Both the position numbers and the translations under genes were made by a program. From positions 1 to 40,297 of the IMG/VR virus record IMGVR_UViG_3300020407_000009: DNA of 40,297 bases. One strand, written 5' to 3'. This DNA comes from a virus. Positions 5 through 40,147 of the stretch are shown here, piece after piece; the stretch's first letter is position 1; each line of letters starts with the position of its first letter. A model generated the notes under the pieces. That model searched no databases. It saw only the letters and a list, made by a program, of their open reading frames with translations, and had not been told where the DNA came from.

Positions 5-81
5 GCGGCTGTAGCTCAGTTGGATAGAGTACTTGGCTACGAACCAAGGGGTCGTGGGTTCGAATCCTGCCAGCCGCACCA
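5..81 (+). tRNA. tRNA-Arg (anticodon ACG)
   Basis: The 77-nt sequence folds as a full cloverleaf. The acceptor stem GCGGCTG (5-11) pairs with CAGCCGC (71-77) and CCA is encoded at 79-81. The D arm starts with GCTC at 14-17. The anticodon stem CTTGG/CCAAG (32-36 and 44-48) encloses a loop with anticodon ACG at 39-41, and the T loop is TTCGAAT at 59-65. The prophage entered this gene. Everything from base 35 on is supplied by the attachment repeat, so integration keeps a functional tRNA at the left end and leaves only a 3' fragment at the right end. Confidence 0.97.
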
Positions 82-137
82 GAACATCGTTCTGAATCAA
101 CGCCTTAGACGGTCAAACGTCTAAGGCGTTTTTCTTT
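35..137 (+). repeat. attL: attL: left copy of the 103-bp attachment repeat
   Basis: This block is identical to 40045-40147, at a constant offset of 40,010. It starts in the 5' strand of the anticodon stem (G35) and covers the anticodon loop, the T arm, the acceptor 3' strand, CCA, and the tRNA terminator through TTTCTTT. Tyrosine integrases commonly use the anticodon or T-loop region of tRNA genes as crossover site. The exact crossover within the 103 bp cannot be placed because the two copies do not differ. Confidence 0.97.
99..137 (+). terminator. Rho-independent terminator of the tRNA gene
   Basis: A 12-bp perfect stem, AACGCCTTAGAC (99-110) with GTCTAAGGCGTT (119-130), surrounds an 8-nt loop and is followed by TTTCTTT. 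It lies inside the attachment repeat, so the phage carries its own copy. The tRNA therefore keeps its terminator after integration, and host tRNA transcription is stopped before it enters the prophage. Confidence 0.93.
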
Positions 138-3833: not shown

Positions 3834-5813
3834 TCAGCCCTCCTGCCCGTCGGTGGTCCTGGTGGTGTCGAAGTCGGCCAGGGTCTTGCCGTCTTCCAGC
3901 GCGGCCTTGAGCCACTTCGGCTGCAGGCCGCGGCCCGACCACGTTTCGCCGGTGGCAGGGTTGCGGTAGCGCACGCCGGGCTTGCGGGTGCTGGGGCTGG
4001 CGGCCTGGTTGGCATGGGTGGCCATGAATACTTCGGTGGCGTCGGCCGGCTTCGGCTCGGGGGCACCGCGCTTGCGCTGCTCGGCTTTCAGTGCGATGTC
4101 GGCTTCGACTTCGGCTTGCTCGCGCACGGCGTCGAGGTCGATGCCGTAGTGCTCGGCCAGCACCAGGCCATCGTGTCGCCCGGCGAGGCCCTGTTCCAGC
4201 GGGTCACGGTCTGTCAGCGGCTCAGCGATCACCAGTTCGATCAGCAGCTGGCCCAGCATGCGCGCGTCGTCCGGGTTGTCGGGGTCGCTGTTGTTGATGC
4301 GATCCATCAGCCCTTCCAGCTTGGGATGACCAGCGGCGTCTTTGCACTCGGGGTCATGCGTCAGCAGCACCAGTTTGATGGCCTCGTAGCTGGCGTTGTC
4401 GTAGGCGATCTGCGCCGCCATCTTCAGGCCGATGACGGGCAGTTCGCCCTGCGACAGGCAGGCGTGCAGCTGCTGGAAGGCCAGGCGGCCGATGGCCGCA
4501 TCGCGGACCGTGGACAGGAACTGCACGCTCTGCTGGTCAGTCAGGGGCTTCAGCTTGGCTTCGGGCGACGCCTTTCGCGCACTGCCACCTACCGCGCTGT
4601 CATCGTCATCGCCGCTGTCTTGCACCTGGCCATGTAGCAGCCCCAGCTTGCGCAGCTCAGCCTCTACCAGCTCCCGGCTCACCAGCTCGTGCAGCTTGCC
4701 GTCGCGCTCCACCACGTGCACGTCGGCCGCGGTGAACGTGATGATCTCGCGCAGCGGCCGCTTGTCCGGTGTCATGGTGATCGCCGGCCGGTCGAGGTTG
4801 CGCCAGTCGCCGTACACATAGTCGGCATACGGCATCACCTTCCGCCCCTGCTCTTCATCCAGCACCTGCTTGCCATCCGCCCGCGCCTTGTCGATGGCCA
4901 GCTGCAGGTGCTCGGCCTTCTTCGCCGCAAAGCACTCGCGGTCCTGGCACTGATCGCTGACCGCCACCTGGTCATCGAACAGGCTGGCCGTGCCAGCGCC
5001 GGTGCGCTTCGGGCAGCTGGTGCACGCACCGGCCACCGTGTACACCGCGCGGATGTCGAAGGGCGCGCTAGCCAGGTCCAGCATGAATTCCTTGTGCAGC
5101 ATCTGCACCGTCTGCCGGTAGCTCAGCGCCTCACCGCCCCAGCCCTGCAGCACCAGGGCCAGCGCCTGGCGCTGCAGCTCGTGGTGGGGCAGGGTGGCCA
5201 GCGCCATGGCCACGCTGGCGCTGATCTTGTCGTCGTAGCAGGCGGTGCGGGCTTCCTGGCACAGCGCGCACAGCTTCAAGCGGTTGTAGACGTAGCGGCG
5301 GCTCTTGCCGATGCGGGCCGCGATCTCGTCCGCGTTCGCGTAGCCCTGCAGGCCGTTCTCCTTGCGCAGCAGGGCCTCATAGCCCTCGGCCTCTTCCAGC
5401 GGGTGCAGGCCTTCGCGCTGCAGGTTCTCGATGAGCTGCACTTCCAGCACTTCGAGGTCGGTCATGGCCTTGACGATCACGGCCACGTACTCCATCGCGG
5501 GCAGGGTGCGGTCTTCCTCGCCATCGACGGCCAGGCGCAGCTCGCCGCTGGCCAGCCACCGGCGCTCACCGGCCACGATCTCGTAAGGGGGCACGCCATT
5601 GGTGGGCGTGTGGGCCGGGTGCGGCCGCACGTTGATGGGCGCCAGCTGGCCGTGGGCGCGCATGCTGGTGCCCAGGTCGAACAGGCCGGCGGGCGTGAAG
5701 CGCGCGCGGCGCATGGCCTGGGCCGGCGTGCTGCTGGGCGCCAGCAGATTGCGCGGCACGACCATGGCGCCGTCGATCGCGGCCCGCTGGGGGATATCGG
5801 AAAGGTCGGACAT
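3834..5813 (-). CDS. ParB-like nuclease/partition protein with C-terminal H-NS-type DNA-binding domain
   Basis: The 659-residue protein opens with a ParB/Srx-type domain: GERRWLA near residue 83, then box II LIENLQREGLHPLEEAEGYE. A helix-turn-helix follows (ADEIAARIGKSRRYVYNRLK). A Cys cluster (ACTSCPKR and CQDREC) precedes a long middle region. The last 40 or so residues (615-648) read RYRNPATGETWSGRGLQPKW and onward, the consensus of the H-NS C-terminal AT-hook-like domain with its GRG motif. ATG 5813 has GGAGA upstream; an alternative ATG at 5834 would add 7 residues. No parA or plasmid features are present, so a role in early phage DNA handling or host regulation is more likely than plasmid partition. 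Confidence 0.9.
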   Translation of the reverse strand: MSDLSDIPQRAAIDGAMVVPRNLLAPSSTPAQAMRRARFTPAGLFDLGTSMRAHGQLAPINVRPHPAHTPTNGVPPYEIVAGERRWLASGELRLAVDGEEDRTLPAMEYVAVIVKAMTDLEVLEVQLIENLQREGLHPLEEAEGYEALLRKENGLQGYANADEIAARIGKSRRYVYNRLKLCALCQEARTACYDDKISASVAMALATLPHHELQRQALALVLQGWGGEALSYRQTVQMLHKEFMLDLASAPFDIRAVYTVAGACTSCPKRTGAGTASLFDDQVAVSDQCQDRECFAAKKAEHLQLAIDKARADGKQVLDEEQGRKVMPYADYVYGDWRNLDRPAITMTPDKRPLREIITFTAADVHVVERDGKLHELVSRELVEAELRKLGLLHGQVQDSGDDDDSAVGGSARKASPEAKLKPLTDQQSVQFLSTVRDAAIGRLAFQQLHACLSQGELPVIGLKMAAQIAYDNASYEAIKLVLLTHDPECKDAAGHPKLEGLMDRINNSDPDNPDDARMLGQLLIELVIAEPLTDRDPLEQGLAGRHDGLVLAEHYGIDLDAVREQAEVEADIALKAEQRKRGAPEPKPADATEVFMATHANQAASPSTRKPGVRYRNPATGETWSGRGLQPKWLKAALEDGKTLADFDTTRTTDGQEG

Positions 5814-5833
5814 GGGGGATCTCCGGCCGGCCA

Positions 5834-6142
5834 TCAGTCGTCGTCACGGTCGCCGCTGGCCAGGCGTTTGCGGTCGACCGTGGGTGCCGCGGGCGGGGCC
5901 GGCGGCGGGTAGTGGTGGGCGCGCGCCGGCGGGGGCTCGGGGCGCGTGACGGGGGTGCGGCGCACCAGGCGCGCCGCGGTGCCGATGACGTGGCCGCGCG
6001 ACTGCAGCCAGGCCACCGTGTGCACCAGGCGGCAGCGCACGGGGTCGGTCAGCGTGTCGGCCAGCGTCTCGGGCCAGCCGGGGCGGCGGATGGCCAGCCA
6101 CGCGGCCTGCAGCTGCTCGGGCGTGGGATCGGGGCGGGCCAT
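5834..6142 (-). CDS. Hypothetical early phage protein
   Basis: A 102-residue frame. The first 60 residues (TPEQLQAAWLAIRRPGWPETLADTL and onward) look helical and folded, while the C-terminus is Pro/Ala-rich and ends in an acidic tail. It lies 4 bases after the preceding gene, and its stop shares an A with a possible upstream ATG of the ParB-like gene (TGATG). The strict spacing supports coding. Function unknown. Confidence 0.6.
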   Translation of the reverse strand: MARPDPTPEQLQAAWLAIRRPGWPETLADTLTDPVRCRLVHTVAWLQSRGHVIGTAARLVRRTPVTRPEPPPARAHHYPPPAPPAAPTVDRKRLASGDRDDD

Positions 6143-37346: not shown

Positions 37347-37595
37347 ATGCCCATGGCGGATGAAGACGCGCGCCCGCACGCGCTGACCGATGAGGACGTC
37401 GACCGCATCGTCGACCGCTTCGTGTGCCGCATCAGCGACAAGCGCACGGTCGAACAGATCACCGATGCATGGAGCGGCGTCGTAGACCGCGCCCTGGGCC
37501 GCGGCCTGCGCCGCCTGGCCATGTGGGTGCTCATGGCGGTGCTGCTGTGGGGCGGCATCAAGTTCGAGTTGATTAGACAACTGTTCAAGGGCTGA
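37347..37595 (+). CDS. Small membrane protein at the start of the lysis module
   Basis: The 82-residue product has a charged N-terminal half (ALTDEDVDRIVDRFVCRISD) and one C-terminal membrane segment, LAMWVLMAVLLWGGIKFEL. It has an AGGAG site before ATG 37347, and its stop is immediately followed by the holin/transglycosylase gene (overlap of one base). It could be a holin accessory or antiholin with one span; an inner tail-associated function cannot be excluded. Confidence 0.65.
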   Translation: MPMADEDARPHALTDEDVDRIVDRFVCRISDKRTVEQITDAWSGVVDRALGRGLRRLAMWVLMAVLLWGGIKFELIRQLFKG

Positions 37596-38536
37596 TGATC
37601 ATGCGCATCCGTTTCCGACACCTGTTCACGCTGGGCGGCACCGCGGTGGTGGGGGCTGCCCTGTACCTCACCGACCCCGACCATGGCCTGTCCACGGCCA
37701 TGCTGTTCCTCACGCTGGCCACGCCGCTCATCGCGGTGCTTTTCACTCACTGGTCGCGCAAGGCGCTGCACGACTACCCAGAGGCCAATGCCCGCGGCCT
37801 GTTTGCCGAGGCGCGCAAGCACCCCATCGGCGCCGGCCTGGCGCTGGTGGCGCTGGCCATCGTCACCAACGGGCTGCTGGGCCTGTTCGGCCGTGCGGCG
37901 CATGCCGCCGGTGTGCCGCCGCAGGCGCTGGCCCAGCTGCCGGTGCTCGCCGCTGAGATCGACCGCGGCTGGCCCGACGTGCCGCTGCGCGAGTACCTGC
38001 CGGGGCTGATCGAGCATGAAAGCTGCATCACGCTCACCCACCCCCGCTGCTGGTCACCCACCGCTAGGCTGCGCAGCGCGCGCGAAGAGGGGGCAGGCCT
38101 GGGCCAGCTCACGCGCGCCTGGCGGCCCGATGGCACGCTGCGCTTCGACGCGCTGGCCGAGCTGCGCCAGCAGCACCCGGCGCTGCGCGAGCTGGATTGG
38201 TCGACCATCTACGGCCGGCCCGATCTGCAGATGCGTGCACTGGTGCTGCAGTCGCGTGGCAACTACCGGGCGCTGGCCGGCGTGGCCAGCGCCATGGAGC
38301 GCCTGGCCATGGCCGATGCGGCCTACAACGGTGGCCTGGCCGGCCTGCAGCGCGAACGCCGGGCCTGCCAGCTCACCGCGGCGTGTGACCCGGGCCGATG
38401 GTGGGGCCACGTCGAGCGGCAGTGCCTGAAGAGCCGGGAGCCGCTCTACGCAGGCCGCAGTGCCTGCGACATCAACAGGCACCACGTGGTCGACGTGCTG
38501 CAGGTGAGGGCCCCCAAGTACGCGGGGCTGCTGTGA
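37595..38536 (+). CDS. Membrane-anchored lytic transglycosylase (holin-like domain fused to endolysin)
   Basis: The 313-residue protein has three predicted membrane helices in its first 100 residues (near 10-27, 33-50 and 78-97, for example HLFTLGGTAVVGAALYLTDP and STAMLFLTLATPLIAVLF). These look like a phage holin. From residue 105 a muralytic domain follows: LIEHESCITL with the likely catalytic Glu, EEGAGLGQLTRAW, and ADAAYNGGLAGLQ, the pattern of soluble lytic transglycosylases. Lysis would thus use one protein for membrane and wall functions. ATG 37595 overlaps the previous stop. It is coupled to the spanin gene by GTGA. Confidence 0.88.
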   Translation: MIMRIRFRHLFTLGGTAVVGAALYLTDPDHGLSTAMLFLTLATPLIAVLFTHWSRKALHDYPEANARGLFAEARKHPIGAGLALVALAIVTNGLLGLFGRAAHAAGVPPQALAQLPVLAAEIDRGWPDVPLREYLPGLIEHESCITLTHPRCWSPTARLRSAREEGAGLGQLTRAWRPDGTLRFDALAELRQQHPALRELDWSTIYGRPDLQMRALVLQSRGNYRALAGVASAMERLAMADAAYNGGLAGLQRERRACQLTAACDPGRWWGHVERQCLKSREPLYAGRSACDINRHHVVDVLQVRAPKYAGLL

Positions 38537-38898
38537 TCGGCGCCGGCCGCGCGGCCGCCGGCGCCATCGCCGCGGTGGCCATCCTGGCGGCCACCTATGC
38601 CGCTGGCCAGCGTGCCGGCGAGGCCGCGGCTGAATCCGCCGCGGCGCGTGAAGAACGCCTGGTGCGCGAAGCGCGCGAGGCCATGGAACAGACGGCCGGC
38701 ACGGCCATCAGCAAGATCGAGGTGCGCCATGTCACCATCCGCCAGCAGGCCGATACGGTCATCCGTGAGGTGCCTGTGTACAGCGATTGCCGCCATGACC
38801 CTCGCGTCCTGCGCAGCATCAACGAAGCCCGCACCGGAGATCCAGCCGCGGCCGCTGGTGCTGGCAGCCTGCCCGCCGCTGCAGCCGCTGACCGATGA
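38533..38898 (+). CDS. Rz-like i-spanin
   Basis: The 121-residue protein starts at GTG 38533 over the previous stop. It has an N-terminal membrane segment (AAGAIAAVAILAATYAAGQR), a charged coiled-coil middle (AAAREERLVREAREAMEQTA) and a C-terminal part VIREVPVYSDCRHDPRVLRS, typical of Rz. Rz spans from the inner membrane to an outer-membrane lipoprotein partner and fuses the two membranes in the last step of lysis. The partner gene is nested in the +1 frame. Confidence 0.85.
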   Translation: MIGAGRAAAGAIAAVAILAATYAAGQRAGEAAAESAAAREERLVREAREAMEQTAGTAISKIEVRHVTIRQQADTVIREVPVYSDCRHDPRVLRSINEARTGDPAAAAGAGSLPAAAAADR

Positions 38899-39004
38899 CA
38901 GCTTCGGCGCGACCGCGCAGGCGCTGATCGATACGTCGGTGCAGTACCGGAAGTGTGGGTGTGCGGCGGGCGTGCGAGCTCTGTGTTTTCTTTCTGGAGA
39001 TTGA
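38765..39004 (+). CDS. Rz1-like o-spanin lipoprotein, nested in the i-spanin gene
   Basis: A 79-residue frame beginning at GTG 38765 (or ATG 38795) lies largely inside the Rz gene in another frame. It has a short signal with lipobox LASC, then AAST and a Pro-rich stretch KPAPEIQPRPLVLAACPPLQ, the usual look of Rz1. Nested Rz/Rz1 is known in lambdoid phages. The last residues (YRKCGCAAGVRALCFLSGD) are Cys-rich and unlike the usual charged end, which may mark a recombination joint just before the cargo gene. Confidence 0.75.
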   Translation: MRCLCTAIAAMTLASCAASTKPAPEIQPRPLVLAACPPLQPLTDDSFGATAQALIDTSVQYRKCGCAAGVRALCFLSGD

Positions 39005-39039: not shown

Positions 39040-39852
39040 TCAAGTTCGTTCTTCGTCCCACTTTAAGTCAAGTTTCTTTAAATCGTCAGGGTGCACAGGG
39101 GCGCCTCGAATGACTTCTCCGGTCTTAGATATGTGCACGGCCCGCGTTTCTATCCGTACGCCTGCTTCATAAGCGCTGCGACCACGGATGGGCGGAAATT
39201 TTGGCGCTTTCGCTATTAGTTTCTCGCGATGCCGAGTTCTCTCATCCTCGGATACCGTTGGCGGCAATCGTCCCCGCAAAATTTCGTTGATAATTCCTGC
39301 GGCGTGCATCATCCTGTACCGAAGGTCCGCGAGGCGATTGAGATCGAAATCAAGCGTCTGCTTAGTGTGGTTGTACCGGCCCGTGACTTGCATTTTGTGA
39401 GTTACGGTCTTGTCGTCTCTCACAAACATTGCAAAGTCTTGGTGTCCATGGACGAGAATGTTGCGCAGCTGCGCGAGTTCTTTCACCTCCGCAAGTGTTC
39501 CCTCCACAAGGCTGAGAACCTCGGGTTCCGCTGACCATAGTTTATTGGCGAGCGTCTGCGCAAGTTTCACCTTCTTGTCGAACTTGTTTGACGCAAGCAA
39601 TTCCGCCCCAGCGGGGTCGCCTGCCATGTCATTTAGCCAAGCGCCTAGAACCTGAAAGTTTCCATCTACGACGGACCAAGACAATACGATGGCTCCAACT
39701 GCAAAATAGTACTCGATCGTGAACTTTGGGACCTGGTATGGCAAGTCGGCCAACCTGGCTAGTTCTAGCGTCGGGAATCTGATGTTCTCAGCAGTGACCG
39801 GCTTCGCAAGATCTGCAGGCGTAGGTCGTGGGCGCTCGGAAGACGTATTCAT
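39040..39852 (-). CDS. Cargo gene with HEPN-type Rx4H motif; possible anti-phage RNase
   Basis: The 270-residue product is mainly helical. It contains ELAQLRNILVHGHQDFAMF with Arg130 and His135 four residues apart, the Rx4-6H signature of HEPN ribonucleases, next to an aromatic helix (FTIEYYFAVGAIVLSWSVVD). The gene runs against the lysis operon, adjoins attR, and its DNA is visibly richer in A and T than the phage genes, so it was probably acquired separately. ATG 39852 has GGAG five bases upstream; a longer open frame to 40110 reads through the tRNA fragment and is not used. HEPN proteins of prophages often abort infection or cut RNA. The C-terminal part may be regulatory. No toxin-antitoxin partner is adjacent. 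Confidence 0.75.
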   Translation of the reverse strand: MNTSSERPRPTPADLAKPVTAENIRFPTLELARLADLPYQVPKFTIEYYFAVGAIVLSWSVVDGNFQVLGAWLNDMAGDPAGAELLASNKFDKKVKLAQTLANKLWSAEPEVLSLVEGTLAEVKELAQLRNILVHGHQDFAMFVRDDKTVTHKMQVTGRYNHTKQTLDFDLNRLADLRYRMMHAAGIINEILRGRLPPTVSEDERTRHREKLIAKAPKFPPIRGRSAYEAGVRIETRAVHISKTGEVIRGAPVHPDDLKKLDLKWDEERT

Positions 39853-39874
39853 TCGGGCTCCAGTTGAGGCCCCC

Positions 39875-40044: not shown

Positions 40045-40147
40045 GGCTACGAACCAAGGGGTCGTGGGTTCGAATCCTGCCAGCCGCACCAGAACATCGT
40101 TCTGAATCAACGCCTTAGACGGTCAAACGTCTAAGGCGTTTTTCTTT
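40045..40147 (+). repeat. attR: attR: right copy of the 103-bp attachment repeat, with tRNA-Arg 3' fragment and terminator
   Basis: This copy is identical to 35-137. It contains the last 47 nt of tRNA-Arg (40045-40091, from the anticodon stem to CCA) and the 12-bp-stem terminator (40109-40140). The tRNA fragment lacks the acceptor 5' strand and the D arm, so it is not a gene. The preceding bases CGCG are unrelated to the tRNA, which shows the joint. Confidence 0.97.

Follow-up and report, generated by a model that had tools for sequence, protein, structure and literature searches.

The prophage locus and its cargo gene

The window, i.e., the whole stretch of DNA that was analyzed, comprises 40,297 bases and corresponds to a prophage record in IMG/VR. 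It contains an exact 103-bp repeat: attL (35–137, plus strand) includes the 3' part of a tRNA-Arg(ACG) gene together with its terminator, and attR (40045–40147, plus strand) is identical over the 103 bp and carries the tRNA-Arg 3' remnant. The region between the att sites encodes an integrase, a ParB-like protein, a primase, a terminase, portal, capsid, and tail proteins, an endolysin-type protein, and embedded spanins. The ParB-like protein of 666 aa (3834–5834, minus strand; phrog_4715, E=6.5e-29) belongs to the early leftward region of the integrated prophage. At the right end, the endolysin-type lysis gene (37595–38536, plus strand; phrog_669, E=7.9e-9) is the last module ahead of the cargo gene and is followed by embedded inner and outer spanin genes of the Rz/Rz1 type (38533–39004, plus strand), which are convergent with the cargo gene. 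Both spanins were named from sequence features: the Rz-like inner spanin occupies 38533–38898, and the Rz1-like outer spanin frame, with the lipobox LVLAAC, lies within 38597–39004.

The sole gene between the spanins and attR is located at 39040–39852 on the minus strand and encodes a protein of 270 aa, termed P0001. It starts with the ATG at 39852, preceded at 5 nt by the Shine-Dalgarno sequence GGAG (39858–39861, minus strand); an in-frame TTG further upstream at 40110 was considered as an alternative start and is less likely, lying inside attR. The gene is antisense to the late genes, is the only minus-strand gene in its stretch, and has a G+C content of 52.8% compared with 67.2% for the whole window. 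No match to it was present in 50 viral records, many of them fragmentary, that share the terminase family of this prophage. Being lone, on the opposite strand, of distinct composition, and without a counterpart in those records, it is a prophage cargo ("moron") gene. An earlier reading of the sequence alone had described a single, leftward, AT-richer cargo gene between the spanins and attR, and the locus is as that reading had it, with the spanins and attR as its only neighbors. Its further statement that no antitoxin or nucleotidyltransferase is adjacent also holds, and there is neither a minimal nucleotidyltransferase (MNT) gene nor a small ORF partner beside P0001. The weak promoter that it had assigned to the gene was not recovered: a scan for sigma-70-like promoters found none above chance, and the best match (8/12) was equaled or beaten in 65% of shuffles, under rules that may not be those of the host.

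The RN..VHG motif and its background frequency

The HEPN superfamily is known for metal-independent RNase activity that needs an arginine and a histidine, and an acidic residue close to its active site is also conserved, often as Ex3[KR] in helix 2. P0001 is laid out as a probable HEPN-like domain of approximately residues 45–196 and a C-terminal tail of approximately residues 200–270, which has no relatives. The sequence LRNILVHG, which had drawn attention to the protein for its Arg and His at the Rx4H spacing, is present at residues 129–136 with R130 and H135. The codons of the RN..VHG motif (R130-N-I-L-V-H135-G136; 39445–39465, minus strand) mark the candidate HEPN active site. A second block shared with the relatives described below, W..[LV][DE], is formed by W59-S-V-V-D63 (39664–39678, minus strand) in the first long helix of the structural model. 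D63, four residues past W59, is a conserved D/E position and a candidate acidic partner, and P0001 does not have the Ex3[KR] form there.

The background of the motif was taken from 1,091 related-phage ORFs with 338,841 residues in total. On this background, R....H is expected 0.83 times per 270 aa and occurs three times in P0001 (R130, R178, and R249), so that R....H alone is uninformative. The longer pattern is far rarer, with one occurrence of RN...HG and none of RN..[VIA]HG in the 338,841 residues. In HEPN proteins, the arginine is mostly followed by Asn, Asp, or His (PMC3710099), and P0001 shows the Rx4-6H arrangement with such a polar residue after the arginine, as R130-N131-I-L-V-H135.

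Predicted structure

A single-sequence AlphaFold model of P0001 had a pLDDT of 45, and a PDB fold search on it was meaningless. A second model was built for core residues 36–200 from an alignment of nine window or viral sequences. It is all-helical, with a pLDDT of 70.3 and a pTM of 0.64, and consists (in model numbering) of a long helix at 11–42, a short one at 45–52, two more at 56–71 and 75–100, a low-confidence stretch, and a final long helix at 129–160. R130–H135 (R95–H100 of the model) end the helix at 75–100, ahead of the final long helix. The HEPN motif is expected at the end of helix 3 or the start of the loop to helix 4, and the model, at its moderate confidence, places RN..VHG in just this position. 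A Foldseek search of this moderately confident model against the PDB gave no HEPN structure among the matches listed, none of which was significant. Against the BFVD viral models, only A0A4Y5TZQ9, a viral protein of 159 aa, stood out (probability 1.00, E=0.02, TM 0.54, 18% identity). Of the structure prediction and fold search that had been proposed as the test of the HEPN assignment, the prediction favors it through the helix-end motif in an all-helical model, and the fold search against the PDB matched no HEPN structure.

Profile and sequence searches

Searches of the Pfam, NCBIfam, and PADLOC profiles with P0001 gave no match, including none to the HEPN/DUF86 models of Pfam, and nothing significant was found in PHROG. 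The absence of a HEPN profile match is a weak test, as Tha-1, an experimentally demonstrated HEPN RNase, likewise finds no HEPN protein in the PDB by phmmer; failed sequence searches therefore say little. A confident match to a non-HEPN family, the result that would have spoken against the sequence-only reading, did not appear in Pfam, NCBIfam, PADLOC, PHROG, or Foldseek, nor, at the level of helix positions, did an Arg and His far from each other. The phmmer matches of P0001 in the PDB to the histone methyltransferase KMT5B (E about 0.01) are short and unrelated.

Close relatives of P0001 were absent from the genome and viral contig collections within the reach of an 8-residue word scan. A query with tail protein J for related prophage right ends returned nothing, while a terminase query returned 75 related viral loci, the recovered ends of which are rearranged or partial and thus allow no clean comparison of the same locus.

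Remote relatives of P0001

The P0001 core was compared by tblastn with plasmids and phages without requiring the motif, and the matches were near threshold (E about 1–2). Two of the proteins found in this way align across the whole core with the motif: a Pseudomonas syringae plasmid protein (RNIYVHG) and a Microcystis phage protein (RNLVVHG). Their spacing from the tryptophan to the motif is 68 and 72 residues, compared with 71 in P0001. Three other tblastn matches were rejected: a plasmid "ATP-binding protein" that is without the motif, P2-EC31 with a frame broken by stops, and TraI, a relaxase of known function.

In addition, gapped DNA scans of IMG/VR, which demanded W..[LV][DE] and, at a similar distance behind it, RN...HG, yielded eight more relatives (L091, L093, L117, L171, L172, L174, L183, and L192). 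L117 in turn had significant tblastn matches to plasmid proteins of Rhizobium, Agrobacterium, Shewanella, Pseudomonas, and Polaromonas, all of which keep R and HG, with N after the R except for H in L163. Whether from prophages, the Microcystis phage, or plasmids, the relatives have in common G....W..[LV][DE] approximately 70 residues ahead of RN..[VIA]HG, and all are annotated as "hypothetical" or not at all. Motif conservation in the relatives from the DNA scans is given by construction, so only the members found by tblastn count for it.

Against a profile built from the 15 members other than P0001, P0001 outscored every one of 3,000 shuffles and 2,073 real ORFs; with the motif residues masked, it no longer stands out. 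The masked pairwise score of P0001 with each tblastn relative was reached by 19 of 1,000 shuffles, for relatives that had been preselected from a large database. These masked scores are marginal, so that common descent with the relatives beyond the motif is plausible from sequence, not proven. Single relatives matched HEPN_Cthe2314 (E=0.11) and Abi_C (E=0.14) weakly. The match of the relative L100 to PADLOC HEC-01B (E=0.008) was set aside, being weak and spanning one helix only. Separately, an ORF of approximately 95 aa recurs in many metagenomic viral contigs (L103–L159, e.g., L153:13181–13465); it has the RN...HG DNA pattern at constant spacing and reaches only approximately 13–16 bits with the family profile.

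Genomic settings of the relatives

Several relatives lie among tail genes. L091, L102, L204, L205, and L206 each stand alone on the strand opposite to tail genes: for L102 and L091 these are the neighboring genes; L204 and L205 occupy small islands flanked by a minor tail protein gene and a tail assembly gene; L206 adjoins a tape measure gene. Prophage cargo genes of this lone antisense kind are recognized as a source of defense systems (PMC11087260, PMC9122126, PMC9519451). The islands of the two prophages (L204:5095–8647 and L205:5395–7917), between lambda K-like minor tail and lambda I-like tail assembly genes, are variable and hold different extra genes beside the relative, one resembling a trypsin-like protease, and may represent a cargo hotspot.

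Other relatives, L203 and L167, are found beside integrase or recombinase genes, while L163 is placed in an Agrobacterium defense island among AbiE, N-6 methylase, restriction endonuclease, and caspase genes. This defense-island-like region of the Agrobacterium plasmid pAtK224b (L163:1–7438) encodes an N-6 DNA methylase, an XRE regulator, AbiEi/AbiEii, a restriction endonuclease, the P0001 relative, an uncharacterized protein, a caspase-family protein, and a UvrD helicase. Further relatives adjoin plasmid ParAB genes or a dCMP deaminase gene, so that defense is not the only reading of these settings. The upstream genes of L160, L161, L163, and L167 are mutually unrelated, i.e., there is no conserved partner. 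On the Rhizobium plasmid pC5.7c (L160:4076–5639), the relative has beside it a protein whose RNQIFAH may be a second HEPN-type motif and another that resembles a nucleotidyltransferase; this may be a further toxin–antitoxin-like locus.

Comparison with known HEPN systems

Tha, the tail-activated HEPN anti-phage system of Staphylococcus phages 80alpha and phiNM2, is a single-gene HEPN RNase of 301 aa in S. aureus prophages that is triggered by phage tail proteins and carries the motif R265NSIMH270 (PMC11087260). Like P0001, it is single-gene prophage cargo without an adjacent antitoxin and is of similar size (301 and 270 aa), and R265NSIMHG of Tha-1 resembles R130NILVHG in the RN, the hydrophobic residues, and the HG. 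They differ in layout, as the HEPN domain of Tha is C-terminal (184–296) after an N-terminal region, whereas the motif domain of P0001 is central and followed by a C-terminal tail; they also differ in position, Tha adjoining xis/int and the P0001 gene lying between the spanins and attR. BLAST of P0001 against Tha gave 18.5 bits and E=0.16 in a single comparison, a score that 39 of 1,000 shuffles reach and that does not establish homology. The family profile scored 28.4 on the motif helix of Tha-1, over 21 columns only, above all 400 decoy ORFs (maximum 20.6); its scores on Tha-2 and RnlA were not above decoys.

ApeA and other stand-alone HEPN proteins are used in phage defense (PMC10952713). 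The ApeA-type proteins (PF18735 HEPN_RiboL-PSP and related Pfam HEPN families) share the Rx4H motif class with P0001, which differs from them in matching none of their Pfam models. HEPN proteins are also the toxins of HEPN-MNT modules (PMC3710099, PMC7641770). HepT of these modules, like P0001, has Rx4H with a polar residue after the arginine (PMC3710099); HepT has a nucleotidyltransferase partner, whereas P0001 has no adjacent MNT gene.

Alternative explanations

The motif might be a coincidence in an unrelated helical protein, with relatives gathered largely through the motif itself. This is unlikely, although the profile match that vanishes on masking, the eight relatives from scans that demanded the motif, and a PDB fold search without a HEPN structure all speak for it. 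Against it stand the two relatives that were found without requiring the motif and carry RN..VHG at nearly the same distance from the tryptophan, the position of the motif, which in the model coincides exactly with the end of a helix, and a background rate of the full motif near zero. These three points support a HEPN-like domain in P0001; the Rx4H spacing, as evidence by itself, falls away.

A HEPN-like domain could also serve other ends than defense, in an active or inactive RNA-binding or regulatory protein for prophage maintenance or lysogen fitness, e.g., in RNA processing or the control of induction. The varied settings of the family, which include ParAB and dCMP deaminase neighbors and not defense islands alone, fit such a role; the occurrence as lone antisense genes within tail operons or at the end of a prophage, typical of cargo expressed in the lysogen, and the active-site residues retained in all relatives do not, and it is judged quite improbable. 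Still further from expectation, and very improbable, is a toxin whose antitoxin is not adjacent, being an antisense RNA or encoded at another site of the prophage. HEPN proteins do act as toxins in HEPN-MNT modules, but neither an MNT gene nor a small ORF adjoins P0001, and L160, L161, L163, and L167 have no conserved partner.

A probable divergent HEPN-like cargo family

The best reading is that P0001 and its relatives constitute a new divergent HEPN-like family of phage cargo, so far without a name. P0001 quite likely has a HEPN fold. The chances are about even that P0001 is a defensive RNase, and the specific proposal that the cargo gene encodes a divergent HEPN-like protein acting as a Tha-like abortive-infection RNase is an equally balanced one. 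P0001 probably works like Tha or ApeA, membership of either family not being established, and would most likely guard the infected cell against other viruses. The domain would dimerize, with R130 and H135 of two subunits forming a metal-independent RNase site. As no antitoxin is adjacent, P0001 would be kept inactive in the lysogen by itself or via its C-terminal tail. A signal from a superinfecting phage may then free it, and RNA cleavage would halt the infection together with the cell, as in abortive infection by Tha.

A broader proposal is more doubtful: the HEPN family marked by G....W..[LV][DE] approximately 65–73 residues before RN..[VIA]HG, a variable and partly beta-rich stretch, and a last helix could be a widespread anti-phage module of just one gene, present as a moron within tail operons, at prophage ends, and on plasmids of Proteobacteria and in a cyanophage, that senses infection without a partner protein. 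If confirmed, P0001 and its relatives would add a lone and unnamed HEPN effector family at prophage cargo sites that current defense catalogs have missed, and they would provide a simple way to test how an RNase encoded by one gene is silenced and triggered without an antitoxin.
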